A stretch of DNA of 64,000 nucleotides from Bryobacterales bacterium F-183 (GTDB taxonomy: Bacteria > Acidobacteriota > Terriglobia > Bryobacterales > Bryobacteraceae): positions 3,286,001 through 3,350,000 of the forward strand of contig AP025252.1 in assembly GCA_016865505.2 (NCBI GenBank). Reading direction: 5' to 3'. Both the position numbers and the translations under genes were made by a program. Numbering within the stretch: position 1 is the first letter of the stretch; each line of letters begins with the position of its first letter. Below, piece after piece: positions 27,119 through 64,000 of the stretch. A model generated the notes under the pieces. It did not search any database, was not told the DNA's origin, and was given only the letters and a program-made list of their open reading frames with translations.

Positions 27119-27134
27119 TGACCATATGTGGTCA
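27119..27134. promoter_or_regulatory. Operator-like palindrome TGACCA-N4-TGGTCA, copy 1
   Basis: TGACCA-TATG-TGGTCA is a perfect inverted repeat; with one more base each side the arms reach 8 bp (CATGACCA/TGGTCATG). It lies 7 bp past the stop of the methyltransferase gene, in the scar zone. An identical half-site pair with the same spacing is at 35940-35955, upstream of the exopolysaccharide operon. The binding protein is unknown; GntR- or MarR-type repressors bind sites of this shape. Confidence 0.45.
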
Positions 27135-35939: not shown

Positions 35940-35955
35940 TGACCAAACTTGGTCA
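35940..35955. promoter_or_regulatory. Operator-like palindrome TGACCA-N4-TGGTCA, copy 2
   Basis: TGACCAA-AC-TTGGTCA is a perfect inverted repeat with 7-bp arms, in the 258-bp gap ahead of the exopolysaccharide operon. Half-sites and spacing equal copy 1 at 27119-27134. A further half-site (TGACCAAC) lies near 36098. It could govern transcription of the whole downstream gene train. Confidence 0.5.
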
Positions 35956-36165: not shown

Positions 36166-37653
36166 TTGATCACGTCGCTATGCTTGTTCTTCGGAGCACT
36201 GGCCGTTGTGCTGTGCTTGACCCCTTTCTTAAGCCATCAGTTTCTGCCGCTCGGTTTGCTGGATTATCCGGACGGCAATCGCAAGACGCACAGCCTGCCA
36301 GTCCCAAGAATCGGCGGCATCCTCATCATGCTGGCCGTACTGCTGAGCTTGTCGGCGGGGCGGATGTTCGCCGAACCGGGCACTCTAGCGGCTTCTGCTC
36401 TTGCGCGCATCCCGTGGCTCTTGCCGGGGGTTGCAGCTGTGTTTCTGGGCGGTCTCCTAGACGACCTGTACGACCTGCGTCCATTACATAAGCTTGGTTT
36501 TCAGGTGCTGGGTGCCTGCCTACTCTATGCCGCTGACGTTCGGATCCACTCGCTTGCCGGTGTAGTGCTGCCGGAGTGGGTCAGCTTTGCGGCAACGATG
36601 GTCTGGCAGTTGGGCATGATTAACGCCCTCAACGTTGTGGATGGTCTGGACGGGTTGGCTGGCGGCCTGACGCTGATCGCTATCGCGACCATTTGTGTTG
36701 CCGCCTGGTCGAGCGGCCGCTACGAGCTAGCCGCGCTGTCCTTCCCGATTGCAGGAGCCTTGATTGGGTTTCTGATCTTCAACTCTCATCCCGCAACTAT
36801 CTTCTTGGGTGACTGCGGTAGCCAGCTGCTGGGTCTGATTCTGGGGTGTCTGGGGATACTGTGGGTGGATCGCGCGCCGACATTGCTCGCTGCGTCTATT
36901 CCCTTACTCGCGTTCTATCTGCCGCTGTTTGACCTCGCCATCGCCACCTCACGCCGCTTTATTCGCGGAAAGTCGATCTTCTCAGGGGACCGCAGGCACA
37001 TTCACCATCGGATTCGGGACTTGGGCTTTAGTCCGAGGCGCACCGTCTACGCGATGTACCTGCTGAGCGCCGCAGGTTCCGTTGCCGCGCTGGTTGAGCT
37101 TCTGACTCCGGCAAGGGGCTTGGCAATCGTCGTCTTTCTTCTTGGATTGAGCCTGCTCGTTCATCTGCTGGGGTACGCCGAGTTTGGCCTTGCGGCCCGA
37201 GTATGGTTTGGCGCGGTCGGTCGTCGGGTCGTCGATTGGGGTACCCACTTTTCGATGCTTGACCAAGCGCTCGACAAAACGCGCAACACCGACGAGATTT
37301 GGGAGGTTCTGCAGCGCGACGCCCCGGCTCTTGGCCTGACGCCAACGCGCATGTGCCTCGACGGAAAAAGCTACGAGCGGCCTGCTTCTGCACCGTCGCA
37401 TTCCTTTGAAATGCACGTTCATCTTTGTGCTGACCAGTACGTCACCTTTGCGCAACGCAGCTCCGACCCATTCGCGCCCGTTTGCGTGTCTTCCTTTGTT
37501 TATTCGTTGAGGCGGCAGGTGGTCCGGCTGAACCCCCTGTCGCCCGTTGCCAGCGCAATCATCAACGATCAAAGCGCAGTTGCTCCACGAACGCTCAAAA
37601 AAACACGACCTTCTGAAGCGTTGGACGTTCCCAGCGCAGCATCGCGTACCTAA
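36166..37653 (+). CDS. WecA/MraY-like undecaprenyl-phosphate sugar-phosphate transferase
   Basis: This 495-residue polytopic membrane enzyme starts the polysaccharide repeat unit by moving a sugar-1-phosphate to undecaprenyl phosphate. Family motifs are GLLDDLYDLRPLHKLGFQ, NALNVVDGLDGLAGG (N156, D159, D162), IFLGDCGSQLLG and GDRRHIHHRI (H278, H280, H281). The start is a TTG at 36166 with GAGGGA just upstream. An internal ATG near 36180 would cut the first membrane span. Residues after about 350 form a soluble extension of roughly 145 residues not found in typical WecA, including QALDKTRNTDEIWEVLQRDA. It is the first gene of the exopolysaccharide operon. Confidence 0.9.
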   Translation: MITSLCLFFGALAVVLCLTPFLSHQFLPLGLLDYPDGNRKTHSLPVPRIGGILIMLAVLLSLSAGRMFAEPGTLAASALARIPWLLPGVAAVFLGGLLDDLYDLRPLHKLGFQVLGACLLYAADVRIHSLAGVVLPEWVSFAATMVWQLGMINALNVVDGLDGLAGGLTLIAIATICVAAWSSGRYELAALSFPIAGALIGFLIFNSHPATIFLGDCGSQLLGLILGCLGILWVDRAPTLLAASIPLLAFYLPLFDLAIATSRRFIRGKSIFSGDRRHIHHRIRDLGFSPRRTVYAMYLLSAAGSVAALVELLTPARGLAIVVFLLGLSLLVHLLGYAEFGLAARVWFGAVGRRVVDWGTHFSMLDQALDKTRNTDEIWEVLQRDAPALGLTPTRMCLDGKSYERPASAPSHSFEMHVHLCADQYVTFAQRSSDPFAPVCVSSFVYSLRRQVVRLNPLSPVASAIINDQSAVAPRTLKKTRPSEALDVPSAASRT

Positions 37654-37681
37654 GCTGCCCAGGAGAGCAGCGCGACGACCT

Positions 37682-38674
37682 ATGACCCTAGCGAGCTTAT
37701 TCTATCGGCACGCCACCACTGCGGTATTCCTGCTCTTCGCAGCCATAGCTGCGGGGCAGGTGCAGCCAGCAGCGACGCCCGCCCCGCGCGGGCAATTGGA
37801 CACTTCGTACCGGCTGAAGCCGGGGGACCAGATCACTTTAAAAGCTGCCGAAATGGAAGAGCTGAGTGAAAAGGTACTCCGCGTTGCCGCGGACGGAACG
37901 CTGGTGCTGCCAGTTCTGGGTGTCGTCACAGCGGCGGGCCTTACCGTCGAGCAACTGGAGGCACTCGTTACTACACAGTTGCGCCGTTATGTGCGAGCGC
38001 CACAGGTCAACGTCTCGCTCGTGCAGGCCCGCAGTTCGCCCGTGTTTGTGTCAGGCGCTTTCAAGTCCCCGGGTAGCTACACCTTGACGGGTGACCAAAC
38101 GCTCAGTGGCATGATTGCCGCAGCGGGTGGCCTGCAACCTTATGCCAGCCGGACGATTCGGCTCACTCGCCTGCAGGACATGGGTCCGATTCCGCTGGCT
38201 GGCGCTATTGTCGACGCTCCCGGCAAGCGAAGCTTCGTCGACATCCGCCTTGCTGGTCCGGCAGATCGCGCTGCCGCGGCCGAAGACGACATTCTGCTAA
38301 CGCCTTACGACGTCATCAGCGCGGAGCGCGCCGAGATGATTTATGTGACGGGGCACGTCGCGAAGGCTGGTGCGATTGAACTGGGCGAGCGCGAGTTCCT
38401 TTCCATCACCAAGGTCATCAGCTTGTCGGGGGGCCTCTCGGCAGGCGCGCAGGCAAGCCGGATCAAGATACTACGGCCAGTGCTCGATACATCGAGACGT
38501 GCCGAGATCGTGGTCAACACAAATGACATCGCAACCGGCAAGGCGTCGGACTATCCGGTGTACGCAAACGACGTGGTGTTCGTACCGGAGAATGCGAAAC
38601 GTAGCGCTCTAACCAAGGCCGGCATGATCTCAGTGGGTCTCGTTCCGGCAATCATCCTATTGGGCGTGAGATGA
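37682..38674 (+). CDS. Polysaccharide export outer-membrane protein, Wza/GumB-like
   Basis: This 330-residue protein has an export leader (ending AAIAAGQ). The Poly_export domain follows (about 38-125, with SYRLKPGDQITLKAAEM and LPVLGVVTAAGLTVEQLEA), then SLBB repeats (about 130-210 VFVSGAFKSPGSYTL and about 225-310 IYVTGHVAKAGAIEL) and a hydrophobic C-terminus. It forms the secretion channel. Unlike E. coli Wza no lipobox Cys is obvious. The in-frame start at 37547 is inside the previous gene, so the ATG at 37682 with its signal peptide is used. It overlaps the Wzc-like gene by 4 nt. Confidence 0.9.
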   Translation: MTLASLFYRHATTAVFLLFAAIAAGQVQPAATPAPRGQLDTSYRLKPGDQITLKAAEMEELSEKVLRVAADGTLVLPVLGVVTAAGLTVEQLEALVTTQLRRYVRAPQVNVSLVQARSSPVFVSGAFKSPGSYTLTGDQTLSGMIAAAGGLQPYASRTIRLTRLQDMGPIPLAGAIVDAPGKRSFVDIRLAGPADRAAAAEDDILLTPYDVISAERAEMIYVTGHVAKAGAIELGEREFLSITKVISLSGGLSAGAQASRIKILRPVLDTSRRAEIVVNTNDIATGKASDYPVYANDVVFVPENAKRSALTKAGMISVGLVPAIILLGVR

Positions 38675-40935
38675 GACGTTACCAAAGTGACGACATAACC
38701 GGACGCGCGATTGCAACCGTCAACACGGACTCTGTTCGGCTGCTGGGGGCCGCGAAGAGTCCAGGCGGATCCAGTCAACCGCATGAGCTGATTCAGCATG
38801 CGCACCTCTTGCTGCGCAACGCACCTTGGATCGTGCTGCTAACGCTTGGCGGCGGTCTCACTGGGTTCTTCTACATGCTGACCCAGACGCCCGGATATCG
38901 CGCCAGTACGGTGATCGAGATTCAAGGGGTGAACGAGGCGTTCATGAACCTTGACCGTGCCGCTCCGCAAGGGGGCGTCGGTGACTACGGTCCGAATCTG
39001 ATCAACATCCAGACCCAACTGAAACTCATCGAAAGTCCATCGTTGATTGCCCGGACAGTTGCGAATGTGCGATCTAATCGCTCCGCAGATTCAGGCCCGC
39101 GCGAGGACCGTTACAGTGACCTGCGGAGCTTGCTCGGAATTAAGCTCGCCACTACGGCGGAGGAATCGCTGGAGATGGCCGCGAAGACCATTGCGGCGCG
39201 ACCCATCGCTGGCACTCGCCTTGTTGAGATCTCCGCCGATTCGTCCGATCCCGTCACTGCGGCCACCTTCGTAAATTCCCTTTCGGAGGAATTCATTACA
39301 GGCACGCTACGCGCCCGCACAAGTGGCGTTCTAACGACGTCGAAGTGGGTGGATCAGCAAGTGGTCGTTCTTCGGAATGAGCTCGCGTTGGCTGAAGCAA
39401 AGCTGCAGAGCTTTGTCCGCGGTAATGACGGGGTTTTCGCCTCGCCGCAGGACACGCTCGCGGAAGCTCGCCTGCATCAGTTGAAAGAACAGCAGGTCGC
39501 CATTCAGGCGGAGCGTATGGCCAAACAAGCGAAGTTCGAAGCGAACTCAGCGGGTGGCGTCGGTTCCATTGCGGAACTGCAAAACGACATCGTGCTGCAG
39601 TCGCTCGAAAGTGAGAAAGCCAAGATTAAGCTCCGCTGGAATGAGCTGGGGACAAAGCTAACGCCGCAGCACCAACGGATGGTAACCCTGCAGGCGCAAC
39701 TCGACGACATCCAGACGCAGATCGACACTCGCCGTGCGGGGATTGCAGCAAAGTTACGCACGGAGTTTGAAGCCGTACAGCGTAATGAGGCCCTGCTTGG
39801 CGAAGCCTACCGGAAGCAAACAAACCGGGCTATCGGGGAGACCGCCAAAACAGCAACCTACAACAGCCTCAAGCGGGAGGCCGAGCAGGCGCGTGAAGCT
39901 CTGAGTGCCATGCTGCAACAGCAACGGCAAACGGGCATCCTGGCGGTGCTGCCGACGAACAACATTCGGATTGTCGATGCGGCGTCGGCTCCTCTAATTG
40001 CCTTCAAACCTAGGGCGTCGGTCCTGGTTGGTTGGGGTTTAGTGAGCGGATTCATGATTGCCGTGATTTTTGCGTTCGCACGAGACAAGGTCCGGCAACG
40101 TGTTCATGCGCCAGGCTTCGTTGGCGACATTCTGGATCTGCCCGAGATTGCAATTATCCCTTCGCAGAGTCCTGTTCCTTGGAGCCGAAGAATCGCGGCG
40201 CGGGCGAACCCTCTGTTGCTGGACGACGCGGCGACGAGTGTCGAGTTGGCTTCGCACTATCAAAGGTCCACTCACCTGGCGGAATCGTTTCGTGGCGCCC
40301 TTGGGTCGTTGCTGTTTGGGGAAGGGGGACGAAAAGCTCCCAAGGTCATCGTGGTCACGAGTCCACGCAAGGGGGAGGGAAAGACCACCGTAACGAGCAA
40401 TCTCGCCATTACCCTCGCTCAAACTGGGCGGCGCGTGGTGCTGATCGACGCGGACTTGCGGGCGCCGCGCATGCACTCGATCTTTGGCGCGGAGAACAAC
40501 AGAGGTCTGGCAGAGTTTGTCGCAGCAGCTGAAGGCGAGATCCGAACGGCCGACGTGATTCATCCGACGGCCTACGAGATGCTCTCCCTCGTGCCTGCTG
40601 GATTCGTTCCGGCCAACATCAGCGCGACGGTATGCTCCCCGCGCCTAGCCGGGTTGATACGAGACCTCTCTAGAATCTTCGACACGGTCATCATCGATAC
40701 CCCCCCGGTTCTTGGCTTGGTGGATACGCGAATCTTCTCGCGGCTCGCAGATGGCGTCATTCTGGTCGTGCGCTCGGGTATGACGGAAGCGAACGACATA
40801 CTCGCTGCGCGCGACCTCTTCCGCCAGGACGGGGCACCTCTCATCGGTACGATCCTTAATGACTGGAAGCCCTCGTCACTCGATGGCGGTCGATACGGGG
40901 CAAGCTACTACTCACAGCAGGGGCCGTCCAAATGA
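38671..40935 (+). CDS. Wzc-like polysaccharide co-polymerase with tyrosine autokinase domain
   Basis: This 754-residue inner-membrane protein has a Wzz-type N-terminal domain, with the first membrane span at about 50-70 (NAPWIVLLTLGGGLTGFFYML). A long periplasmic coiled coil (about 200-420) and a second span near 450-470 follow. The cytoplasmic BY-kinase domain has Walker A SPRKGEGKTTVTSNLA (K571), Walker A' VVLIDADLRAPRM and Walker B VIIDTPPVLGLVD. The C-terminus holds only a few tyrosines (RYGASYYSQQ), fewer than in E. coli Wzc. It controls chain length and export together with the Wza-like protein encoded directly upstream. Confidence 0.92.
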   Translation: MRRYQSDDITGRAIATVNTDSVRLLGAAKSPGGSSQPHELIQHAHLLLRNAPWIVLLTLGGGLTGFFYMLTQTPGYRASTVIEIQGVNEAFMNLDRAAPQGGVGDYGPNLINIQTQLKLIESPSLIARTVANVRSNRSADSGPREDRYSDLRSLLGIKLATTAEESLEMAAKTIAARPIAGTRLVEISADSSDPVTAATFVNSLSEEFITGTLRARTSGVLTTSKWVDQQVVVLRNELALAEAKLQSFVRGNDGVFASPQDTLAEARLHQLKEQQVAIQAERMAKQAKFEANSAGGVGSIAELQNDIVLQSLESEKAKIKLRWNELGTKLTPQHQRMVTLQAQLDDIQTQIDTRRAGIAAKLRTEFEAVQRNEALLGEAYRKQTNRAIGETAKTATYNSLKREAEQAREALSAMLQQQRQTGILAVLPTNNIRIVDAASAPLIAFKPRASVLVGWGLVSGFMIAVIFAFARDKVRQRVHAPGFVGDILDLPEIAIIPSQSPVPWSRRIAARANPLLLDDAATSVELASHYQRSTHLAESFRGALGSLLFGEGGRKAPKVIVVTSPRKGEGKTTVTSNLAITLAQTGRRVVLIDADLRAPRMHSIFGAENNRGLAEFVAAAEGEIRTADVIHPTAYEMLSLVPAGFVPANISATVCSPRLAGLIRDLSRIFDTVIIDTPPVLGLVDTRIFSRLADGVILVVRSGMTEANDILAARDLFRQDGAPLIGTILNDWKPSSLDGGRYGASYYSQQGPSK

Positions 40936-42146
40936 ACATCGTGTTTGCCAGCGCAAGCGGTGCCCTGGGCGGTGCAGAAACTAGCCTTCTGGCGGTGATG
41001 AAGAGCGTTCGCGATGAGAATCCAACTTGGAAGTTGACCCTGCTGACGGGGGAATCCGGTTCTCTGGTATCCGAAGCGTCGAGGCTAGGTATTGGGACTG
41101 TGACGCTCCAGTTCCCGCAGCAATTGGGGCAGATTGGAGACTCCAGCCTCAAGGGATCTCGCAAGGGTCTCGGAAGGCTCCGGTACGTTGGGCGACTCGT
41201 CCGCGCGGGAGCATCCGCTATCGCTTATAGCGCAAAGTTGCGGGCGGCACTCTCTGCCGATCCGCCGGATCTCATCCATGCCAATGGGTTCAAGATGCAG
41301 TTGCTGTGCGCGGTCGCAAAGCCTGGCTCGGTCCGGCTGATCTGGCACATCCACGACTACGTTACCACTCGCCCGGTGGTGCGATGGCTGCTGGCACTCG
41401 CTTCGTTCCGGTGTGACGACATCATTGCGAACTCCGACAGCGTGGCTTCGAATGTGCGCCAAGTGGTCCGCTCAGGAGTGGACGTGACGCGAGTCTATAA
41501 CGCCGTCGACTGTACAGATCTGTCTCCTGCAGGTCCGGCCGCTGATCTGGATCGTCTCGCCGGAGCCCCCCCGACGGCGCCTGGAGTCATCCGTGTCGGG
41601 ATGGTTGCGACTTTTGCGACCTGGAAGGGACACGATGTGTTCCTGCGGGCGATTGCCCTCCTGGACAGCCGTCTCCCGTTTCGCGCCTACATCATCGGCG
41701 GACCGCTGTATCAAACCCAAGGCAGTCAACACACACTCGAAGATCTCCAAGCTGTGCGCTCGCGCCTGGGGTTGGAAAAGAGAGTGGGCTTTACTGGGTT
41801 CCTGAAGAACCGTGCGGAGGCGTTTCGATCGCTGGATGTGGTGGTGCATGCGAGCACAGAGCCTGAGCCGTTCGGCATGGTCATCATCGAGGCGATGAGC
41901 TGTGGCCGCGCGCTTGTGGCCGCTAGCGGGGGTGGTGCGAGTGAACTTACCGTTCACGACGTCGATTCCCTGGTGCACCGTCGCGGAGACGCCAAGGATC
42001 TCGCCGTTCAGATCGAAAGGCTAATCCGGGACCAAGAATTGCGGACTCGCATTTCTACCCAAGGTCGTGCCAAGGCCTTGAGTCGCTTCTCGATGACCGG
42101 GCTTGCCGGTCAGTTGCGTCCCATCTATCTGAGGACCTCGTCATGA
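40932..42146 (+). CDS. GT4-family glycosyltransferase
   Basis: This 404-residue GT-B fold enzyme has the N-terminal acceptor domain with MNIVFASASGALGGAETSL and the C-terminal donor domain starting about residue 215 (VIRVGMVATFATWKGHDVF). The GT4 E-x7-E signature lies in EPFGMVIIEAMSCG. It overlaps both neighbours by 4 nt. As part of the Wzx/Wzy cluster it adds one sugar to the lipid-linked repeat unit on the cytoplasmic face. Donor and linkage are not readable from sequence. Confidence 0.88.
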   Translation: MNIVFASASGALGGAETSLLAVMKSVRDENPTWKLTLLTGESGSLVSEASRLGIGTVTLQFPQQLGQIGDSSLKGSRKGLGRLRYVGRLVRAGASAIAYSAKLRAALSADPPDLIHANGFKMQLLCAVAKPGSVRLIWHIHDYVTTRPVVRWLLALASFRCDDIIANSDSVASNVRQVVRSGVDVTRVYNAVDCTDLSPAGPAADLDRLAGAPPTAPGVIRVGMVATFATWKGHDVFLRAIALLDSRLPFRAYIIGGPLYQTQGSQHTLEDLQAVRSRLGLEKRVGFTGFLKNRAEAFRSLDVVVHASTEPEPFGMVIIEAMSCGRALVAASGGGASELTVHDVDSLVHRRGDAKDLAVQIERLIRDQELRTRISTQGRAKALSRFSMTGLAGQLRPIYLRTSS

Positions 42147-43900
42147 CGCAGAACGGGTCGATAGAACGTAGCGCTGCTACCGCGGTGCAAGCGCCGACGC
42201 CAGAAGGTCCGCCGGTTCGTTTGCTGCATATCTGCGCAGGCAATCTATATGGCGGCGTCGAGGCCATGTTGATGACCTTTGTGTCAGCGGAGGGCGCCGA
42301 GCCACTTCTATCGCATGAGTTCTGTGTCTGTTTTGAGGGCCGCTTCTCGGAGAATCTGACCAAAGCCGGTCTACGGCCTCATCACCTTGGCGAGACACGG
42401 TTAAGCCGTCCTTGGACCGTGCTACGTGCGAGGCGTCGTCTTCGTCGCTTCCTGTTGGTCTCTGGACCTTATGACTTCGTCGTTTGCCACTCGGCTTGGA
42501 CCATGGCGGTGTTCGGTAGATCGTTGCACGCGACCAATGCCGGAGAACTCATCTTCTGGCTGCATGGGGCTCCAGATGGAAAGCAGTGGTTGGAACGCCT
42601 GGCGCGAAAAGTTCGTCCAGCACTCGCGATCTGCAATAGCCGCTTCACCGGCGAGTTACTGCCACATCTATATCCGAACCTAAGGCCCGCAATCGTCTAC
42701 TGCCCCGTGGCACCGCCCGAGAGCGTGGTATCGCGGCGGGACTGTCGCGCCGCTATCGGGACGGAACCTGCAGTTCCAGTGATCCTTCTTCTGGCACGCA
42801 TGGAGGATCGCAAAGGGCACCGCTATCTGGTCGAGGCGCTATCTCGGGTTCAGCATCTGGAATGGGAATGCTGGATCGTCGGTGGTCCGCAACGGCCGTC
42901 GGAGTTCGCTTATTTGCGTGCGCTTCGCACGCGCGTGGATGGACTGGGATTGAACGGACGCGTCCGATTTCTAGGTGAACGCACTGACGTGGGCGATCTG
43001 CTCCATGCGTCCGACATTCTTTGCCATCCGCACATTACTCCGGAACCCTTTGGGATCGCCATTGTGGAGGCGATGTCGAGCGGCCTAATAGTGGTCGCGA
43101 GCAACATCGGTGGACCTCGGGAAGTGCTCACCAAAGAGTCGGGGCTTCTGGTTTGCCCGGCAGACGCCGCAGGCCTTGCCTCCGCGATCGAGAATGTCTT
43201 GGACCTCCCGGAAGAGCAAAGGAGTCGCATGGCCAAGGCGGCTCGTGAGCGGGCGTCGGAGTTGTGTGCACCTACGACTGCGGTCACCCAACTGAACGAC
43301 GTGCTGCGCCTCCGGCGATCGTTGACCGCCGTTCCACATCAAAAGGTGCAGCCGTTCTGGGCTTGCCTTGCGAAGGACCTGCTTGCGCATATCCCGGTTC
43401 AACGTCGCCGAGACGGGCGGCGTTCGCGAACAGTCCAATACCTTCGCACGGTGGCTCTTTCCGCTGGTTTCCACCTCACGCTGCTGTATCGGGCCGCTCA
43501 TGCACTACGAGACCATTTCGGCGCCTTCGGGCGCGCGTTGGCTTTCCTGCTGTATTGGGTCACTCGCCATTGGTACGGATGCACCATCAGTCCGAAGGCG
43601 CGTCTTGGTGGTGGCCTGATCCTTCCCCATCCCCAGGGCATCGTAATTGGGCCAGACGTTACGGTGGGCGACCGCGCCTGGATCTATCAGAATGTGACTC
43701 TCGGCGGGGGCAATCACTCGGGTATGCCTACGATTGGCGACGACGCCCGCATCTATACGGGAGCTGTCGTGGCAGGGGGCGTACGCCTTGGCGACCGCGT
43801 GTCGATTGGGGCAAACAGTGTCGTGACTTTCGATGTGCCGGATGGCGCTCGGGTTCGGCAACCCGAGCCCGTGATGAGGTTGGATCGCACACATGAATGA
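42143..43900 (+). CDS. Fusion of GT4 glycosyltransferase and serine-acetyltransferase-like (LbH) domain
   Basis: The protein has 585 residues. Residues 1-400 are a GT-B glycosyltransferase with VILLLARMEDRKGHRYLVEAL and the E-x7-E motif in PEPFGIAIVEAMSSG. Residues about 430-585 form a left-handed beta-helix acetyltransferase of the CysE type (GCTISPKARLGGGLILPHP, VIGPDVTVGDRAWIYQNVTL, YTGAVVAGGVRLGDRVSIGA). CysE-like proteins are usually separate genes in polysaccharide clusters, where they O-acetylate sugars. Here the frame is open across the joint with no stop. It would couple sugar addition to acetylation. It overlaps the acyltransferase gene by 8 nt. Confidence 0.88.
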   Translation: MTQNGSIERSAATAVQAPTPEGPPVRLLHICAGNLYGGVEAMLMTFVSAEGAEPLLSHEFCVCFEGRFSENLTKAGLRPHHLGETRLSRPWTVLRARRRLRRFLLVSGPYDFVVCHSAWTMAVFGRSLHATNAGELIFWLHGAPDGKQWLERLARKVRPALAICNSRFTGELLPHLYPNLRPAIVYCPVAPPESVVSRRDCRAAIGTEPAVPVILLLARMEDRKGHRYLVEALSRVQHLEWECWIVGGPQRPSEFAYLRALRTRVDGLGLNGRVRFLGERTDVGDLLHASDILCHPHITPEPFGIAIVEAMSSGLIVVASNIGGPREVLTKESGLLVCPADAAGLASAIENVLDLPEEQRSRMAKAARERASELCAPTTAVTQLNDVLRLRRSLTAVPHQKVQPFWACLAKDLLAHIPVQRRRDGRRSRTVQYLRTVALSAGFHLTLLYRAAHALRDHFGAFGRALAFLLYWVTRHWYGCTISPKARLGGGLILPHPQGIVIGPDVTVGDRAWIYQNVTLGGGNHSGMPTIGDDARIYTGAVVAGGVRLGDRVSIGANSVVTFDVPDGARVRQPEPVMRLDRTHE

Positions 43901-45014
43901 TCGCAACCCTCATCCCGGCTACATCCCAACTCTGAATGGGTGGCGTGCCATTGCCATTCTGATGGTCCTGGTTGCGCATGGTGCCCCTGTCGCCGCACGT
44001 TCGCTTGGCTTGGCTGAGAGTGACGTCAGTGGCTGGTCGACACGTGCCGCGCTGGGAGTGGATGTCTTCTTCGGGATCAGCGGATTCTTGATTTGCTCTC
44101 GTCTTATACAAGAAAGGCAGCACACCAACAGCATCGATCTCCGCGGATTCTACATCCGGAGATTCTTCCGCATCCTGCCGCCTTTCGTAGTGGTCCTGGT
44201 CGTTCTTTGGCTGTTGACCGAGGGCGGTCTGATTCGCGTACGTCCTGCCGAGTGGCTGGGCTCGCTCCTCTTTTATCGAAACTACGTCGCTTCGCTGCCA
44301 GGCGGTTGGTACACAGGACACTTCTGGTCGCTGGCCATCGAGGAGCATTTCTACTTTCTCTGGCCCCTCATCCTTTACTTTAGGCGGCCGCGCATCGCAC
44401 TGAGCATTGCGTTTGTTGGCATCGTAGCGATCGCTGTCTGGCGCACCTTCGCCTATCGGGTTCCTGCGTTGAGGGAACCATTTGGGGACGTCAGCTTCTT
44501 TGCTCGAACCGACATTCGAATGGACGCATTGCTATTCGGCTGTGCCGCCGCCTTGCTGGTTGCACGCTATCGCACTCTACTCGAGCGCCACGCTTCGGCG
44601 GTGTGGACCATTGGAATCATTACCCTTTACGTCTGGTGTGTAGCCAAGGCGCCGCCGTTCTCGCTGAGTTGGCAGGGGTTACTCATCGCCGCAGCCATCG
44701 GTTCAACCTCCATCCATCCTTTGGGGTTTGTTGGAGCCGCCTTGGAATGGATGCCGCTCCAGCAGATCGGCAAGTACTCCTACAGCTTGTATCTCTGGCA
44801 GCAGCTCTTTCTGCCGCCGCAGTCTGACATAGCCTTCCCATGGCTACAGACAATGCCGCTTGCGCTGGTGGCGCTGACAATCTGTGCAGTCCTCAGCTAC
44901 CACTGGGTCGAACAGCCGTTCATTCGCTTGGGCCAGCGACTCGCGAAGGCGCCACGCAACCTGGGTCCGGCATCTCCGGCCACGGAGCCTTGCCTTGTGG
45001 AGGCATCACGATGA
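43893..45014 (+). CDS. Acyltransferase 3 (OafA/YrhL-like) membrane protein
   Basis: This 373-residue polytopic membrane protein starts with YIPTLNGWRAIAILMVLVAHG, the typical OafA/YrhL entry. It has the family motifs ALGVDVFFGISGFLICSRL, FYIRRFFRILPPFV and FWSLAIEEHFYFLWPL. About ten membrane spans follow. It should O-acylate, usually O-acetylate, sugars of the exopolysaccharide at or across the inner membrane. It is a second acyl-decorating activity next to the CysE-like domain of the preceding gene. Confidence 0.9.
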   Translation: MNDRNPHPGYIPTLNGWRAIAILMVLVAHGAPVAARSLGLAESDVSGWSTRAALGVDVFFGISGFLICSRLIQERQHTNSIDLRGFYIRRFFRILPPFVVVLVVLWLLTEGGLIRVRPAEWLGSLLFYRNYVASLPGGWYTGHFWSLAIEEHFYFLWPLILYFRRPRIALSIAFVGIVAIAVWRTFAYRVPALREPFGDVSFFARTDIRMDALLFGCAAALLVARYRTLLERHASAVWTIGIITLYVWCVAKAPPFSLSWQGLLIAAAIGSTSIHPLGFVGAALEWMPLQQIGKYSYSLYLWQQLFLPPQSDIAFPWLQTMPLALVALTICAVLSYHWVEQPFIRLGQRLAKAPRNLGPASPATEPCLVEASR

Positions 45015-46324
45015 CCGGCCTATTGCTGTGCCTTTGCGCCTTCGTCATGTCGTATCTGGCGGGAAGACACTCCCTGGTGCGAGGGCTCGCCGCGGTGTGC
45101 GGCGTCGGATACGTCTATGGAATCGCGCGCGCTTGGGTTTACTCCACGCCTGCTTACTTCCTCTTCGATGCCGCGTTGATCGGGCTCTATCTGGCCCAGC
45201 TGTTTCCACGGAGTCCAGTTCCGGGAACAGCTACGATGCGTCAACTCAAGATCTGGATTGGACTGCTGGTCCTCTGGCCGCTGTTGCTCTTGTTTGTTCC
45301 TGTGCAACCGTACCTGGTGCAGTTGGTTGGACTTCGCTGTGCCGTCTTCTTTCTGATGTGCGTCCTGTTGGGTGCGCGTTTGGCGGGTGAGGACCTGTAC
45401 GAGTTCGCCCTGTGGCTGGCTGGCCTGAATCTGATTGCGTTGGTGGCTGGAGCCGCCGAGTTCACGATGGGAATCGAGAGATTCATTCCGGTCAACGACG
45501 TGACCGCCATCATGTACGCCAGCAAGGACGTCGGCGAGGGGATGGCGCATCGCATACCGTCGATCTTTTCCAGTGCGCATGCCTACGGCGGAACCATGGT
45601 CGCGACCGTTCCGTTCCTTGTTGGCGCTTGGCTGCAACCCAGGCGTCCACTCTTACAGCGCGCACTTATCGTCGCTGGACTATTGGCAGCGATCCTGGGC
45701 GTGCTCATCTCAGCTGCCCGCATGCACTTTGTGATCCTTGCCGCGCTGCTGCTCGTCTTGAACATTTCACTCAAGATGCGAGCCGTTCACCGCTTCACCT
45801 TGCTCGCCGCGATGGCCCTGCTCGGATTCCTCGTGTCGCAGCAGGAACGCATGCAGCGCTTCACTTCGCTGTCAAAAGTGGAAGAGGTTTCCGACCGCGT
45901 TCGATTCAGCCTGAGTAGTGACTTCTGGACCCTGGCCCAGGAACTTCCCATGGGTAACGGCCTCGGTGGCGGTGGCACCAACATGCCGTACTTTCTTGCC
46001 GGGCAGATTCGGAACCGGCTCATCATCGAGAACGAGTACGCCCGGATCCTATTGGAAGAAGGATGGGTGGGCCTGTTGCTATGGCTCGCATTCATTGTTT
46101 GGATCTTCACGCGGCGCAGCCGGGGGTGTGATCCCAATTGGATCGCTGGCAGGAGAATGGCATGGGTGCTGGCGTTTCTTTCGAACGCCACGGCCTTTAT
46201 TGGAAACGGACTGCTCGTCTCCATTCCCCAAAGCGTGATTATGCTCGTGACCCTGGGCTGGATCGTCTCGGGCGGACCGTATTCAATCAGCGGTCGCAAA
46301 GGACAGGTGTCCCATGCGTGCTAG
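45011..46324 (+). CDS. Wzy-like O-antigen/exopolysaccharide polymerase
   Basis: This 437-residue, very hydrophobic protein has about eleven membrane spans. The large periplasmic loop near residues 150-200 contains RFIPVNDVTAIMYASKDVGE and RIPSIFSSAHAYGG. The late block ELPMGNGLGGGGTNMPYF and IENEYARILLEEGWVGLLLW is typical of the O-antigen ligase/polymerase family. It would join repeat units in the periplasm. The start at 45011 overlaps the acyltransferase stop (ATGA); the longer frame from 44840 is discarded because it runs inside that gene. Confidence 0.82.
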   Translation: MTGLLLCLCAFVMSYLAGRHSLVRGLAAVCGVGYVYGIARAWVYSTPAYFLFDAALIGLYLAQLFPRSPVPGTATMRQLKIWIGLLVLWPLLLLFVPVQPYLVQLVGLRCAVFFLMCVLLGARLAGEDLYEFALWLAGLNLIALVAGAAEFTMGIERFIPVNDVTAIMYASKDVGEGMAHRIPSIFSSAHAYGGTMVATVPFLVGAWLQPRRPLLQRALIVAGLLAAILGVLISAARMHFVILAALLLVLNISLKMRAVHRFTLLAAMALLGFLVSQQERMQRFTSLSKVEEVSDRVRFSLSSDFWTLAQELPMGNGLGGGGTNMPYFLAGQIRNRLIIENEYARILLEEGWVGLLLWLAFIVWIFTRRSRGCDPNWIAGRRMAWVLAFLSNATAFIGNGLLVSIPQSVIMLVTLGWIVSGGPYSISGRKGQVSHAC

Positions 46325-51371: not shown

Positions 51372-51374
51372 ACT

Positions 51375-52508: not shown

Positions 52509-54759
52509 AGCTCCCGCACCACAGCAACGTGTTTCGGACTACACGCAGCAGAAACTGCGTGGCGCGGTCATTTGCGACTTTCACGAGGAACGCTGGCCCA
52601 GTATGGATCTCACTGCGGACAGGCTAGTGCAGCATGCACAGCCCGAAGAGACTCACATAACGCTTGACCAAATCCGCCCGGCCATGCGATCGAGGCTCCA
52701 AAGGTTGCCCGGGTTACGCAGCAACCGGATGGCCCTCAATGCCGACCGCCTGGCCAATCGCTTCCTAGATTACCCGCGGTACCTGCGTGCCATTCGCGGC
52801 AAGTACGACTTCTTTCACATCGCCGACCATTCCTACGCCCACCTGGTGCACAGTTTGCCGCACGAGCGCACCGGAGTGTACTGCCATGATCTCGATATCT
52901 TCCGTTGTCTGGTCGATCCACCGGCGGATCCGCGGCCGGCTTGGTTTCGTAGCATGGCGGGCCGAGTTCTATCGGGCTTGCAGAAGGCGAGCATCGTGTT
53001 CCACTCCACGGACGCCGTGAGGGGGGAGTTGATGAAGCATGAATTGGTAGACCCGGCACGTCTCGTTAGAGCCCCGTTCGGTGTCTCCACAGCTTTTCAT
53101 TTCAGTTCCCAAAAGAACGTCGCGCATGAGTCTTACCTGCTCCATGTGGGCTCCTGTATCCCGAGAAAGCGAATGGATGTCCTGTTGGAGTCCTTTGCAT
53201 CCGCTCGCGGAACACACCCTGAACTTCGCCTGATCAAGGTAGGGGGGCAGTGGACATCCGGGCATCAGGCTTTCATTGAGTCCAAAGGCTTGTCCAGCCA
53301 TATCACTCACCTTCGCGATCACATCAGTGACGATGAGCTCGCCACGCTGTATCGGGGTGCGCGAATCGTGTTGATGCCCAGTTCGGCGGAAGGCTTTGGA
53401 CTTCCGGTGATTGAGGCGTTGGCATGTGGGGCGACCATCATTGCATCGGATCTTCCGGTGTTTCGCGAGATCGCAGGCAGCAAGATCAAGTACTGTCCGG
53501 TTGGCTCCGTGCGGGAATGGACAGATCGAATTCTCGAGCTACTGAGTCGGCCACCCGAGAGATCAACTGAGCAAGCATCCGCGCAGCCTTCATGGGAGAC
53601 CTACGCTGGCATCATCACCGATGCCTACCGTGCGAATGATGAAGCCAAACGGGGGCCCAAACGCCTTCGCGTATTGCATGTAGGGAAGTTCTACCCTCCT
53701 CATCGCGGCGGGATGGAAACCCATCTGGAGGGGCTAAGCGCACGGTTGAAGGATTCCGTCGACCTGGATGTCGTTGTATCTAACACGTCAGCAGATACGG
53801 CTACTGCGTATCCCGGCGGCGTGCGCGTTACCCGCCTGCGCAGCCTGATGGAGGTCGCGGGAATGTCAGTTTGCCCCGGTATGGTTGGCACAATTGCAAA
53901 GTCACGATCTGACATAGTGCATATCCACTGGCCGAACCCCGCCGCAGTTCTTGCTTTCCTTCTTGCACAAAGCAAGGCCAAGCTGGTCATCACCTACCAC
54001 AGTGACGTGCTCCGGCAAAGGTTCCTGAATGTTCTATTCCAGCCATTCCTGGCGCTGGGGCTTCGCCGCTGTCAGGCCATTATCGTTACGTCGCCTAACT
54101 ACGTTGCTCACTCGCCGTTGCTTTCCAAGTGGCAAGGCATCTGCCACACAGTTCCCCTTGGAATCGACCCTTCGACCCTGGATATGCCCGCTGATCACCG
54201 GGCCATTCAGCAAATACGCGACCGATTTGGTGATCGACTCATCCTGGCCGTTGGCCGGATGGTTGCCTACAAGGGGCTGAGCATCCTCATGCATGCGATG
54301 GTTGCGATCGACGGTACTCTTCTGCTGGCCGGCGATGGACCGTTGCGCGATGATCTTGAAGCTGAGGCAGTTCGCTTAGGGGTTTCAGATCGCGTCATGT
54401 TCCTAGGGGCCGTACCGAACGTCGTGCCTTACTATCACGCCTGTGATCTGTTCGTTCTCCCTTCCATCGAAAGAACTGAGGCCTTCGGTCTTGTCCAGCT
54501 GGAGGCGATGGCTTGTGGCAAACCCGTCGTGAACACCTCCCTCCGGTCCGGGGTTCCTTTCGTTTCGCCTCACGGCGTTACAGGGCTGACGGTAACGCCG
54601 GGGAATGCATCGGAACTCGCAGAGGCAATCAACACGCTGCTGGCGGACCGTAGCCTCCGCGACCGGTTCGGCGAGGCCGGGCGACACCGCGTCAATCGCG
54701 ACTTCACGCTGGAACGCATGGTGAGCGACACACTGCATGTCTACGAGTCGCTGGCGTAG
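52498..54759 (+). CDS. Tandem double glycosyltransferase (GT4-GT4)
   Basis: The protein has 753 residues made of two full GT-B enzymes. The first (about 1-370) has SYLLHVGSCIPRKRMDVLLE and E-x7-E in AEGFGLPVIEALACG. The second (about 380-753) starts RVLHVGKFYPPHRGGMETHL and has LILAVGRMVAYKGLSILMHA and E-x7-E in TEAFGLVQLEAMACG. Each half has the length of a normal GT4 protein, so two consecutive sugar additions by one polypeptide are likely. It is the last glycosyltransferase of the cluster. Confidence 0.87.
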   Translation: MTTRAPAPQQRVSDYTQQKLRGAVICDFHEERWPSMDLTADRLVQHAQPEETHITLDQIRPAMRSRLQRLPGLRSNRMALNADRLANRFLDYPRYLRAIRGKYDFFHIADHSYAHLVHSLPHERTGVYCHDLDIFRCLVDPPADPRPAWFRSMAGRVLSGLQKASIVFHSTDAVRGELMKHELVDPARLVRAPFGVSTAFHFSSQKNVAHESYLLHVGSCIPRKRMDVLLESFASARGTHPELRLIKVGGQWTSGHQAFIESKGLSSHITHLRDHISDDELATLYRGARIVLMPSSAEGFGLPVIEALACGATIIASDLPVFREIAGSKIKYCPVGSVREWTDRILELLSRPPERSTEQASAQPSWETYAGIITDAYRANDEAKRGPKRLRVLHVGKFYPPHRGGMETHLEGLSARLKDSVDLDVVVSNTSADTATAYPGGVRVTRLRSLMEVAGMSVCPGMVGTIAKSRSDIVHIHWPNPAAVLAFLLAQSKAKLVITYHSDVLRQRFLNVLFQPFLALGLRRCQAIIVTSPNYVAHSPLLSKWQGICHTVPLGIDPSTLDMPADHRAIQQIRDRFGDRLILAVGRMVAYKGLSILMHAMVAIDGTLLLAGDGPLRDDLEAEAVRLGVSDRVMFLGAVPNVVPYYHACDLFVLPSIERTEAFGLVQLEAMACGKPVVNTSLRSGVPFVSPHGVTGLTVTPGNASELAEAINTLLADRSLRDRFGEAGRHRVNRDFTLERMVSDTLHVYESLA

Positions 54760-54769
54760 AAAGAGCCAT

Positions 54770-57031
54770 ATGCAACTCTCACTCCTATCCATGTGGGTTC
54801 TTTCGCTAGCGGCACAAGACGCGGCTCTACGACTGATCGTTCCGGCTGATGGAGGCACGGTAAAAGGCACAGTCTTGATCTCTGTCGCACCCAGCCAGCC
54901 CAACGGTGTCGACAATGTGGAGTATTGGGTCAATGACCAGCCGATTAGCGGTCCCGTTGTTACTCCTCCATTCAGCTTTCTGTGGAACACCGCTTGGCTC
55001 TGGGACGGTCATGCTGCCATCCACGCCCTGGGAAGAAGCACCTCTGGTGCCGTTATCGCCTCCAGTCTGCCGATGTCTGTTCGCATCGCGAACGGAGAAG
55101 GGCGCATATCGTTAGAAGCTCCAGCCGCAGGGCGTACGCTTTCAGGACTTGTCCCCTGGAAAGTTCTGGCGACGCATTCAACTGGGATTGAGGCGATCTC
55201 ACACGTCGTCGACGGCGACTTTCAGGTCTATTTTCAGAACACAATTCCGTTTGACACAAGGGCGCTACGTAATGGCCCTCACCAAGTGTTCAACGCCGTC
55301 TACGCCAAGGGGCCACCCATTCTGCCGGTCGCCCAGATGCGAACAAGAGTGATGGTCGACAACGGCCATACATCGATGGGAATCCTTCCCAATTGGCGAA
55401 CTGTGTTCCTGAGGCCGAGCGAAAGCGTCACGCTTGCGGCGCGCGAACTTTACACCGACGGGCTCGACGGCGCGCTCAAGGAGGGACTCACCTTCAGCAG
55501 TTCCGACGATTCCGTCGCGACTGTAGACGAGCATGGCGCCGTACTCGGTGTCGCAACCGGTGTTGCATTCATCCGAATTGCAGCCAATGGCAAAAAGGTG
55601 CAGACCAGAGTGGAAGTGAGCGCCGAGCAAGTCTATCCGCACTTCTCAAGAAACGGCGACTTCCTGACCGTCTATGACCCGGACCGCTCCCTGTTTGTAC
55701 GCACCGTCTTCGGCCTGAACGCCGACGAGATTCAGGCGACACCGGGACTTGGCGAGCAGGCCCAGCGCGCTGGCATCAACGTCCTGACAGAAGGCCTTTA
55801 TGCCAACCCCGGGGATTCGCACGTTGCGACCCTCGAGGCGTGGCGTCAAGATTGGGATGAGACCTGGCAGGCCAAACTGCGAACGGCAGCGCGATATGGT
55901 TTCAGCCTGTATCTCACCGGCGACGACATCGCGCGCACGCCGAACGAGCTGAACAATAGCATCGCCAACCCATGGTCTGCCGAAGCGATCCGTCATGCGA
56001 TCTCAAGCGCAAGCGATAGCGGACGGGTGGTGGCAATCGACATGATCGACGAAGTCAACTTCCTTTGGGGTGACGATCCAACGCCCCAAGACGGTCGCTG
56101 GACAAAGCATAGTCCCCAGATCCCGGATGATGCATTCGAAAAGCTGATGGCCATCGTCAACGCATTGCCTATAAGGCCAGCCATTAGCTGGCCGGTAGCG
56201 GGAATTGCAAGCCTCGATAGTGTTCGCAATTGGCAGGGTGATCCTTTGTTCTCGGACTTCGCCAGCCATTTCTGGACCTTTGTGGATTGGCGCCCCGCGT
56301 ATCCTCATGGCCCATCGCTCAATCAGTACAAGCGAAACATGGACTTGGTTGCCCTCGACCGCCGCGCCAGTGTCCGTCTGTCCCGTCCGCAACTACTGCA
56401 GAACTCGATGACGGGCCCCTTCTATACCAAACGCAGCTCCGGTAGCGAGTTCAACCCCGCACAAGACTTCCTACAGAATCCTGGGATTCCACCAGTGAAC
56501 GTAGCTGCGCAGGTGATGTACGCGGCAGCTATGGGGCAAGCAGGCATCCGGATGTACCACTACGACACCCGAAGTTGGAAAACCGATCGCAGAAAAGCGT
56601 CTACCGGACTCGGCGATCTTCAGACGGGTGCCGAACCCTTCACGATTGGTGCGGACCGTTGGGATGCGATGGCCGCAGCTTTCCGCTTGGTGGAACGGCT
56701 TGAGCCGTATTTGTTACAGCCGCCATTGCATTCGCCTGAACTCGGCGCGAGCTTCGTAGCCAGTGTGAGGCAAGGGCCCTCCAGTCGGCTGTTGCTGATG
56801 ATCAACCTTTCGGAAGCCGACCAGACGGCACAACTTGATCCAACGCCCTATCGGTATGCCGAGGCGAAGAGCGCCACCGTGTTTCGATTGCTTGGCTCAT
56901 CTCTTACAACCGAGACGATCGACAGTGCCGCAGATCGGCCGGTTTCATTTCGACCCGGTGAGACGGTGGTTGTCCTCTTCACGGCACAGGATCCCGAGGC
57001 TGGGCAAGAAATCATCAGGAAACGGAGATAA
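54770..57031 (+). CDS. Secreted glycosidase-like protein, paralogue of the 32308-35907 product
   Basis: This 753-residue protein has a signal peptide (MQLSLLSMWVLSLAAQ) and two Ig-like units (about 20-110 and 115-200). A Big_2-like segment (about 235-285) precedes a core of roughly 420 residues. The core shares with the 1199-residue protein YLTGDDIARTPNEL, VVAIDMIDEVNFLWG (D427, E428), FWTFVDWRPAYP, GPFYTKRSSGSEF, IRMYHYDTRSWKTDR and HSPELGASF. It lacks the He_PIG repeats and the C-terminal Ig domain. The ATG at 54770 gives the signal peptide and follows the glycosyltransferase stop by 10 nt. No named glycosidase family is recognised. A role in trimming or releasing the exopolysaccharide is inferred from its place inside the operon. 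Confidence 0.7.
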   Translation: MQLSLLSMWVLSLAAQDAALRLIVPADGGTVKGTVLISVAPSQPNGVDNVEYWVNDQPISGPVVTPPFSFLWNTAWLWDGHAAIHALGRSTSGAVIASSLPMSVRIANGEGRISLEAPAAGRTLSGLVPWKVLATHSTGIEAISHVVDGDFQVYFQNTIPFDTRALRNGPHQVFNAVYAKGPPILPVAQMRTRVMVDNGHTSMGILPNWRTVFLRPSESVTLAARELYTDGLDGALKEGLTFSSSDDSVATVDEHGAVLGVATGVAFIRIAANGKKVQTRVEVSAEQVYPHFSRNGDFLTVYDPDRSLFVRTVFGLNADEIQATPGLGEQAQRAGINVLTEGLYANPGDSHVATLEAWRQDWDETWQAKLRTAARYGFSLYLTGDDIARTPNELNNSIANPWSAEAIRHAISSASDSGRVVAIDMIDEVNFLWGDDPTPQDGRWTKHSPQIPDDAFEKLMAIVNALPIRPAISWPVAGIASLDSVRNWQGDPLFSDFASHFWTFVDWRPAYPHGPSLNQYKRNMDLVALDRRASVRLSRPQLLQNSMTGPFYTKRSSGSEFNPAQDFLQNPGIPPVNVAAQVMYAAAMGQAGIRMYHYDTRSWKTDRRKASTGLGDLQTGAEPFTIGADRWDAMAAAFRLVERLEPYLLQPPLHSPELGASFVASVRQGPSSRLLLMINLSEADQTAQLDPTPYRYAEAKSATVFRLLGSSLTTETIDSAADRPVSFRPGETVVVLFTAQDPEAGQEIIRKRR

Positions 57032-57036
57032 CGCGA

Positions 57037-58950
57037 ATGTACCCGCACCAGGACCTGTGGACTGCGTTTCTGGCAACCGCCCGAGATCGTGAGTTGTGCC
57101 CCGCACTTGACTTTACCGCGGCCGGCCGTAGTTCCGGTGCCGAGACACTCACCTTCGGCGAACTGAAGACTGCGGCTCTCCGGGCGGCGGCGCTCCTTGT
57201 GCATTTGGGTGTCACACAAGGTGACGTCGTTGCGATTCAACTCCGAAAAACAAAAGAAACCTACGCGTTGATTCTGGGGTGCCTCCGCATTGGCGCGATC
57301 TACGTATGCCTGGACCCCAATAGTCCACCCGAACGACTGAAACGGATGCTGAACCGTTTGCAGCCGAAGATGCTCTTCGCCGAAACTGCAGCGGAGTCTT
57401 TAAGGTCCGGCCGGATCACGACGATCGATCGTCATCATTCCTATTTGCAGCTCGCTTCATGGCCAAGCCCTCTGTGCGAAGACGAGGCAAACCGCGATCG
57501 CTCTTTGTCACGGCCGGCGTACATCATGTTCACTTCCGGATCCACTGGTGAGCCGAAGGGTGCGGTGATTCCGCATACAGGCGTCCTGCAGCTCATGGAA
57601 TGGGGACGGCACGTTACCGATGGTCTAGCCGGCAACCATCGGTTTCTTGCGATCAGTCCCCTTCACTTTGATAACTCGGTATTTGACCTTTATTGCGGAC
57701 TCTTCAATGGATCCGCCCTCCTACCGGTCGAGACTGCTGAGTCGCCGAATCCGGCCGAATGGGCGCAGGCAATAGAACGCGGGCGGGCTTCGCTAATGTT
57801 TGCTGTCCCAACGCTATTCCTTCTACTCGACAAGGCCGGACTCCTGACCCCGGAGCGACTCGCGCCAATCCGCCATTTTCTATTCGGTGGGGAAGGATTC
57901 CCGATTCACACTCTTCGGACGTTTTACGAAAGATTCCATGGACGGGCGACCCTCACGAACGTATATGGCCCCACGGAGACGAGCTGCATCTGCGCGAGCC
58001 TTGCCGTCGACGCCTCTGCGGTCTCTCTTGCCGGTGATGGGTTCCTGTCGCTAGGGAGCATGCATCCTGCATATGAGTACTCGATACTCGACGTCGACAC
58101 CAATCAGCCTGTGGCGAAAGGCGTGACAGGTGAGTTGTGGATCGGCGGACCCAGCGTTGGCTTGGGTTACTACGCGGATCCGACGGAAACCTCGCGCCGC
58201 TTCTTACAGGACCCACGTCAGGGCCGCTATCGGTCCATCTGGTATCGGACTGGCGATCTTGTTCGACAAGACACAAGCGGAAAACTCTGGTTTGGCGGGC
58301 GAACGGACAATCAGGTCAAGCTGGCCGGCCACCGAATCGAACTCGAGGAGATCGACGCCATTGTGGAGTCACATCCGGCCGTCGATCGCTGCGCGGCAGT
58401 CGTCGCGACACTTGCAGGCGGCGACCGTACGATCGCTGTGGTGTTTGAGGGGAGTTTTCCCATCGCGCCCGGACAGTTGGCAGAGTGGTGTCGGACGCGG
58501 CTTCCGGCGTTTATGTTGCCGCGAAGGTATCTGTCTCTGCCGGCATTGCCTCGGAACGCGAATGGAAAACTTGACAGGCGGCAAGCGCAGGACATCGTAC
58601 AAGCGCATATCCAGGAGGAGGCCGAGGGAACCTTTGGGACACCGCCAACTACTAAGGCGGTCCTGATCGGCATTTGGGAAGAAGTCCTAGGTCACTCGGA
58701 CATCGACCCCAACATCAACTTCTTTGATCTTGGCGGAACATCTCTGCTGCTGCTGCGCGCACGCAATCTTGTTAACGATCGTCTGGGTATCGCCTTAACG
58801 TTGACGGACCTTTTTGCGAACTCTACGATTACCGCACTGTTAGCGCTTTGCGACGAGAAGGACGAGATACCCAAGCGGCAGCCATCGCTTCTGGACGCAG
58901 CTAAGAGCCGGGCCGAAAGAGCCTCGCGCGGTATGCGTCAGCAAGTCTAA
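57037..58950 (+). CDS. NRPS adenylation-carrier protein (A-PCP)
   Basis: This 637-residue protein is a stand-alone loading module. The adenylation domain (about 10-530) has A3 FTSGSTGEPKG (165-175), A4 region HFDNSVFD with the amino-acid-anchoring Asp (D212), A5 NVYGPTE, A6 GELWIGGPSVGLGYY, A7 YRTGDL, A8 KLAGHRIELEEID and A10 NANGKLDR. A carrier domain follows (about 545-620) with the phosphopantetheine Ser in FFDLGGTSLLLLR (S569). The Asp favours an amino acid over a fatty acid, but no residue-level specificity is claimed. GGAGA precedes the ATG. The PKS-NRPS gene starts 27 nt later, so this module probably feeds it. Confidence 0.92.
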   Translation: MYPHQDLWTAFLATARDRELCPALDFTAAGRSSGAETLTFGELKTAALRAAALLVHLGVTQGDVVAIQLRKTKETYALILGCLRIGAIYVCLDPNSPPERLKRMLNRLQPKMLFAETAAESLRSGRITTIDRHHSYLQLASWPSPLCEDEANRDRSLSRPAYIMFTSGSTGEPKGAVIPHTGVLQLMEWGRHVTDGLAGNHRFLAISPLHFDNSVFDLYCGLFNGSALLPVETAESPNPAEWAQAIERGRASLMFAVPTLFLLLDKAGLLTPERLAPIRHFLFGGEGFPIHTLRTFYERFHGRATLTNVYGPTETSCICASLAVDASAVSLAGDGFLSLGSMHPAYEYSILDVDTNQPVAKGVTGELWIGGPSVGLGYYADPTETSRRFLQDPRQGRYRSIWYRTGDLVRQDTSGKLWFGGRTDNQVKLAGHRIELEEIDAIVESHPAVDRCAAVVATLAGGDRTIAVVFEGSFPIAPGQLAEWCRTRLPAFMLPRRYLSLPALPRNANGKLDRRQAQDIVQAHIQEEAEGTFGTPPTTKAVLIGIWEEVLGHSDIDPNINFFDLGGTSLLLLRARNLVNDRLGIALTLTDLFANSTITALLALCDEKDEIPKRQPSLLDAAKSRAERASRGMRQQV

Positions 58951-58977
58951 GAGTCGGAAGTAGGAGGGAGGACCCAA

Positions 58978-64000: not shown

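Follow-up and report, generated by a model that had tools for sequence, protein, structure and literature searches.

A predicted Wzx/Wzy exopolysaccharide operon of Bryobacterales bacterium F-183 encloses a PKS-NRPS assembly line whose peptide might decorate the glycan

A run of 20 co-directional genes in Bryobacterales bacterium F-183 combines exopolysaccharide (EPS) genes with a PKS-NRPS assembly line. The analysed DNA, called the window here, is 64,000 nucleotides long (G000:C1:3286001-3350000 of the 6.28-Mb genome). The run extends over about 36 kb from 36166 to 72104, with positions past 64000 given in window-equivalent numbering. The synthase set is located in the middle of the run and has polysaccharide-type genes on both sides. 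The best explanation, which we put forward tentatively, is that one operon serves a Wzx/Wzy EPS and a three-module assembly line, with the resulting peptide going onto the glycan.

Where neighbouring genes of the run do not overlap (many overlaps are of 4 nt), they are separated by no more than 27 bp, and this widest gap (58950/58978) is found directly before the synthase gene. A preliminary description had reported a rightward run starting at 36166 with gaps of at most about 30 bp, which agrees with these data. It had also let the run extend to the window end; the run exists but continues beyond this point. The synthase gene is interrupted by the window end; its complete product terminates in C-A-PCP. 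A promoter and terminator between 54.7 and 57.1 kb had been named as evidence that would speak against a single unit. A consensus scan of 50-60 kb showed no excess over chance, with 1 promoter-like site against 3.5 expected from shuffled sequences and 5 terminator-like sites against 9.1, the listed sites being intragenic. Such scans were likewise not above shuffles at 66-73 kb and about at chance in the operon-start region (1 against 1.0 and 5 against 3.6, respectively). The earlier claim of one transcription unit is well supported by the gene order, and more strongly than could be seen before because glycan-type genes resume 3′ of the synthase; the operon is very probably co-transcribed. The GC content of the synthase (0.58-0.59) matches that of the neighbouring genes, and recent acquisition of the synthase was rejected for this reason. 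The last operon gene is followed by a 235-bp gap, a ferritin-like gene immediately past the operon (L002:13341-13850) and a gene for a sigma-54 activator on the opposite strand. A search for sigma-54 -24/-12 sites yielded 41 matches against 36.5 expected, which is chance level, and the match at 36057 is weak.

Upstream of the operon lies a palindrome that is a candidate regulator site (Table 1). Exact copies of the pattern TGACCA-N4-TGGTCA occur only twice in the genome, and both fall within the window (27119-27134 and 35940-35955). When up to one mismatch is allowed, the genome has 12 sites, four of them within 48 kb here (simulated p 0.0007); the pattern was picked after being seen and the genome total is near that of the reversed control (11), so that only the clustering favours a regulator site. 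Two of the four sites are located just past the last operon gene (L002:13117-13132) and upstream of the sigma-54 activator (L002:16090-16105). The clustered palindromes are possible binding sites of this activator.

Flippase, polymerase, chain-length kinase and outer-membrane exporter, the genes of a Wzx/Wzy operon, are all present in the one locus, the Wzx match being exactly at the cut-off. Seven glycosyltransferase genes are located 5′ of the synthase set and one 3′. The operon is predicted to encode a Wzx/Wzy-dependent exopolysaccharide. Pfam matches confirm the glycosyltransferases and the A-PCP and KS-AT-ACP-AMT-C proteins that had been recognised earlier.

Table 1. Genes of the predicted operon and the upstream palindrome (window positions; those past 64000 are window-equivalent).
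Feature	Position	Strand	Basis
Palindrome TGACCAAACTTGGTCA, candidate regulator site	35940..35955	.	upstream of operon
WecA/MraY-type sugar-phosphate transferase, likely priming enzyme	36166..37653	+	Glycos_transf_4 125 bits; 8 hydrophobic segments; TTG start
Wza-type outer-membrane polysaccharide export protein	37547..38674	+	Poly_export 70 bits, SLBB
Wzc-type chain-length regulator with tyrosine autokinase domain	38671..40935	+	GNVR, AAA_31; TIGR01007 144.8, cut-off 108
Glycosyltransferase	40932..42146	+	Glycos_transf_1
Glycosyltransferase fused to hexapeptide-repeat domain	42143..43900	+	Pfam
Membrane acyltransferase	43893..45014	+	Acyl_transf_3, 98 bits
Wzy-type polymerase	44840..46324	+	Wzy_C 35, cut-off 31.7; 9 hydrophobic segments
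Three glycosyltransferases	46314-47489, 47486-48682, 48679-49815	+	Pfam
Wzx-type flippase	49812..51371	+	Polysacc_synt 28.2 bits, cut-off 28.2
Glycosyltransferase	51375-52508	+	Pfam
Double glycosyltransferase	52498-54759	+	Pfam
Ig-like-domain protein with N-terminal hydrophobic stretch	54737..57031	+	Pfam; 46% identical paralogue within 32308-35907
A-PCP loading protein	57037..58950	+	Pfam; A code DNFFLGVCIK
KS-AT-ACP-AMT-C-A-PCP synthase, 2579 aa	58978..66717	+	A code DILQLGMVWK, Gly-like
C-PCP-TE protein	66714-69167	+	
Glycosyltransferase 3′ of assembly line	69143-70270	+	
PAF-AH-like hydrolase	70204-71301	+	
TIGR04325 methyltransferase	71298-72104	+	160.9 bits, cut-off 80

The gene preceding the A-PCP gene had been labelled glycosidase-like. 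This label is not borne out: Pfam finds only Ig-like domains in the protein, and the best hit of a PDB sequence search has an E value of 0.93. An AlphaFold model based on a three-row alignment was too poor to be of use (mean pLDDT 35.9). Homologues occur in two of 61 genomes, F-183 included, and in F-183 only among 297 genomes of the phylum. Just 5′ of the operon, 32308-35907 encodes a 1199-aa protein with He_PIG and Ig-like domains, the C-terminal part of which is the 46% identical one. The 734-aa protein encoded at 29682-31886 has ASH/HYDIN-type Ig domains, which are best known from eukaryotic cilia proteins. Sugar-type ABC transporter genes, a fucose-isomerase-like gene and two Sde182 nucleoside-hydrolase-like genes are located at 16466-24260.

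All motifs looked for in the KS, AT, carrier, AMT, C, A and TE domains of the assembly line are intact. The AT of the synthase carries HAFH, which is presumably malonyl-specific. The best PDB match of the AMT is the AMT of MycA (6kfm; 408 residues aligned, E 1e-127), and the suggestion of a beta-amino-acyl group made in the preliminary description fits the domains, with an AMT of the MycA type. The A-domain codes were obtained by motif alignment. We take the loading code to be aliphatic-like; it is not known to match any established code exactly. The same procedure yields codes in relatives that we regard as exact Thr, Gly and Val codes, in support of the reading. The second A domain is Gly-like in 27 of the 34 read rows of the 35-row clade to which F-183 belongs. 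Where a third A domain is kept, it is Gly-like in G464, G536, G585, G261 and G308 and not Gly-like in G033, L159, L166, L176, L118 and L150. Since it is Gly-like in some relatives, a Gly domain was possibly lost from the A-less C-PCP-TE protein of F-183, and the Gly-specific A domain that is left could charge both carriers. No PPTase was recognised in the operon; two are encoded elsewhere in the genome.

Fusions of A-PCP to the KS occur in many relatives, among them G585, L156, Lysobacter concretionis and Bacteroidota loci, and on this ground we take the A-PCP protein to be the loading module. This protein might instead charge the A-less terminal module in trans, as is reported for SyrB1 and SyrE of syringomycin. 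A stand-alone A-PCP indeed often accompanies an A-less terminal module, and in its A domain 14 of 30 relatives have the code DFWNIGMVHK, which we assume to be a Thr code. However, G261 and G308 have both a stand-alone A-PCP and a terminal module with its own A domain, and the fusions to the KS in G585, L156 and the Bacteroidota loci argue against a trans-loader of the last module, a role that we consider highly improbable and rejected because of these fusions.

With A-PCP as the loading module, this protein would load an aliphatic amino acid and KS-AT-ACP would add malonate, the beta-keto group of which would be converted to an amine by the AMT, giving a 3,4-diamino acid. C-A-PCP would then add Gly, and the A-less C-PCP-TE would probably add one more residue, which would again be Gly if both carriers are charged by the Gly-specific A domain, and release the product. 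Read from the domains, a fairly probable skeleton is [aliphatic 3,4-diamino acid]-Gly-(Gly), that is a beta,gamma-diamino acid followed by Gly and probably by Gly again. This short di-cationic acyl-peptide would most likely be put on a repeat-unit sugar before or around Wzx export, and the hydrolase and the TIGR04325 methyltransferase might carry out tailoring steps. The lipopeptide-like product proposed earlier does not agree with the A-PCP loading, and no separate fatty-acyl ligase was found among the 20 genes; a lipopeptide was rejected, as acyl loading was not found.

Among the closest known systems is the iturin/mycosubtilin family, with which the line shares KS-AT-ACP-AMT-C and the MycA-type AMT. 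MycA has the same ACP-AMT-C order and is loaded by a fatty-acyl ligase, whereas the F-183 line has aminoacyl A-PCP loading, a short chain and an EPS-operon setting. The fatty-acyl ligase loading of that family was not found among the 20 genes, and a lipopeptide is not the predicted product. Exosortase-associated EPS clusters with an acyl-CoA ligase (TIGR03098) likewise combine an EPS locus with acyl activation, but the A domains of F-183 score 178 and 242 bits against the TIGR03098 cut-off of 592.

The pairing of EPS genes with an AMT synthase recurs in several phyla and is not unique to F-183. Among 13 plasmid records of unrelated genomes with related synthases, 11 have polysaccharide genes around them, with export genes no farther than about 18 kb from the AMT synthase; the sample comprised 11 records with at least 80% synthase cover (of 23; 20 under a stricter limit) and two with less. 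Rhizobium CCGE531, two Loktanella salsilacus records, Rhodobacter CZR27, Variovorax paradoxus and Aliiroseovarius are linked by annotation. R. jaguaris, Ensifer canadensis, S. fredii, S. americanum and Rhizobium AB2/73 show no annotated feature in the stretch and count as linked because they have homologues of the CCGE531 neighbours. In the annotated polysaccharide loci of CCGE531 and Loktanella, A-PCP, synthase and condensation protein have the same order as in F-183, and related synthases sit in such loci in Rhodobacter, Variovorax paradoxus and Aliiroseovarius. The plasmid locus of Rhizobium sp. CCGE531 resembles that of F-183 in its A-PCP, KS-AT-ACP-AMT-C-A-PCP and condensation proteins, its flippase and its TIGR04325 methyltransferase; the condensation protein is C-PCP-TE in L122 (R. 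lusitanum SEMIA 4060) and L129 (Rhizobium freirei PRF 81), near relatives of this locus. The sugar genes of the CCGE531 locus differ from those of F-183 and include pyruvyl transferase, DegT aminotransferase and GH16, and the locus is linked without forming one co-directional run. Those three genes, a PPTase, the methyltransferase, the flippase, a sugar transferase, a glycosyltransferase and Wzz surround the three assembly-line proteins. The CCGE531 neighbours are present in all 11 further rhizobial loci, six of which were checked for near neighbours only. With 10-kb flanks, these six share pyruvyl transferase, GH16, PPTase and DegT with CCGE531; in two of them, L123 and L283, the gene for the GMC oxidoreductase was not found. 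In Maribacter (L166), synthase and polysaccharide genes form a co-directional unit with a weak Wzy match. The TIGR04325 methyltransferase and hydrolases also recur with the synthase in relatives.

The AMT-C didomain was found at E <= 1e-90 in 24 of 396 genomes of the phylum and in 14 of 200 of the family, F-183 included in both. In the family genome G585, a synthase of the type A-P-KS-AT-P-AMT-C-A-P and C-A-P-TE comes after Wzz, a short protein that matches Wzc weakly, Wza, Wzx and two glycosyltransferases; behind it lie a sugar transferase of the priming type and a beta-helix protein. The genes of this locus are all co-directional with gaps of at most 49 bp, so that this is a second EPS operon with the synthase mid-operon. 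G033 has its synthase and PPTase in divergent orientation to Wza and Wzc. Ten of the eleven other family genomes with an AMT-C match (partial sequence, several on short contigs, G004 left out) showed no EPS linkage within the stretch scanned for the revised tally described below; in one of them, G502, genes resembling Wzc and glycosyltransferases are located on the opposite strand at a distance of about 20 kb. Other assembly-line genes were also seen near polysaccharide genes in the family. In G009 (L209:1-13569 with L237), an EPS operon with Wza, Wzc, Wzy, sugar transferase and glycosyltransferase lies directly before a different NRPS with the order A-PCP, P450, C, A-PCP-TE. In G028, a C-PCP-TE protein stands by itself, flanked by an NAD-synthase-like gene and a flippase (L197:8724-13670), and no other assembly-line module was called in the joined 60 kb around it.

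The pairing is not obligatory, since in one acidobacterial clade eight genomes have the assembly line without EPS genes found. In these genomes (G388, G292, G396, G215, G154, G223, G163 and G429), HMM searches and tblastn with queries from linked loci revealed no polysaccharide export or glycosyltransferase gene in 59-60 kb. A-PCP, synthase and C-PCP-TE occur in the same order as in F-183, together with the hydrolase. The eight count as one evolutionary case because they form a single clade in the tree; they indicate that the assembly line can work without an adjoining EPS locus. Among ten genes around the G388 synthase, Pfam identified an alpha-galactosidase and a sugar transporter and no EPS gene. 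About 4.4 kb 5′ of the A-PCP gene, the G388 locus also has a gene for an MbnB/TglH/ChrH-type RiPP enzyme (L062:5280-6230). In a ninth genome, G418, the terminal protein is longer (C-C-PCP-TE), and a single weak HMM match of the Wzc-like kind lies about 22 kb away. The two unlinked plasmid records, Spirosoma linguale and Variovorax RA8, are the two with lower synthase cover. Relatives with unlinked synthases, which the preliminary description had regarded as speaking against its proposal, are thus found in one clade and in two of the 13 plasmid records, but the other 11 are linked.

Locus tallies were made with home-made HMMs, some of the genes used to build them coming from the very loci that were tallied. 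The best 79 loci of a contig scan that gave at least 79 were taken. In the first tally (+-8 kb), 25 of 98 listed AMT loci had at least one EPS-type gene, compared with 4 of 20 controls (8 of 162 non-NRPS genes), which still included L199. This control (genome G033) is an AMT locus and was dropped, leaving 19. In the revised tally, 21 of 109 listed AMT loci are linked, F-183 included, and in 12 of them synthase and EPS-type gene share one co-directional run. Both tallies are too low for rhizobia because the HMM labels missed six rhizobial loci whose flippase and transferase genes are beyond the scanned stretch. On the tree, 19 of 97 listed rows are linked, with 12 changes, at least nine of them forced, against a shuffled mean of 17.6, the labels being partly wrong. 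L131, L169 and L182 (no synthase picked), L173 and L179 (no AMT called) and G611 (no AMT on its contig) were left out; L139 and G135 are identical in sequence and were counted twice.

Glycan decoration leads narrowly, and a free peptide is its close rival. The peptide might be a secreted small molecule (defence, signal or matrix additive) that is co-expressed with the EPS for the biofilm state and has no covalent link to it, which is possible, if somewhat doubtful. The eight genomes with the three proteins and the hydrolase but no EPS genes fit such a molecule, the TE suggests release, and in Variovorax RA8 the synthase and TIGR04325 methyltransferases lie near RND/TolC efflux genes on the other strand, with no annotated EPS gene in the stretch. 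However, none of the 20 genes was recognised as a dedicated small-molecule exporter, and the linkage recurs with different EPS backbones. No peptide-to-glycan transferase of a known kind was recognised either, and attachment of the peptide to the glycan is suggested with caution.

The adjacency might also lack any functional link, if EPS loci and thiotemplate clusters merely share variable genome regions. Among Acidobacteriota, 10 of 40 AMT loci and 2 of 19 other NRPS loci are linked (p=0.30), an enrichment that is not significant, and the two linked controls (L197 and L209) likewise lie in polysaccharide loci. Against this stand the position of the synthase inside an operon with short overlaps, the composite locus in the 11 further rhizobial loci (six for near neighbours only) and the frequency of EPS-type genes among non-NRPS genes, which is 53/656 near AMT synthases against 2/242 distal in the loci listed (p 6e-6), the near and distal sets coming from different locus sets. 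Hitch-hiking is regarded as unlikely.

A literature search, with subscription journals mostly outside its coverage, found no description of a composite EPS and AMT-PKS-NRPS locus, that of CCGE531 included. The earlier remark that no counterpart is described holds for the literature, but the arrangement itself recurs in several phyla. In the accessible part of PMC3102044, EPS and NRPS are treated in separate sections; that of PMC9723581 never mentions polysaccharide, and that of PMC3557214 (R. tropici and PRF 81) makes no mention of polyketide, nonribosomal or peptide synthetase. The EPS of Vibrio alginolyticus is similar to the proposed product in that amino acids are amide-linked to it; these are single amino acids (D-Ala and D-Ser on galacturonic acid), and the accessible text reports no assembly line and lacks the word biosynthesis (PMC4663550).

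The locus might represent a class of EPS in several phyla with PKS-NRPS-built 3,4-diamino-acyl-glycine (or Gly-Gly) substituents that give a patterned cationic coat, the line being an exchangeable Wzx/Wzy accessory that sometimes stands alone; we regard this wider reading as conceivable rather than probable. If the peptide is glycan-bound, soil Acidobacteriota and rhizobia would have a modular route for bringing non-ribosomal chemistry onto surface polysaccharides, and clusters called stand-alone small-molecule loci may serve a polymer. Rhizobial EPS matters for plant infection, and the Rhizobium and Sinorhizobium strains with the locus make the question directly testable there.
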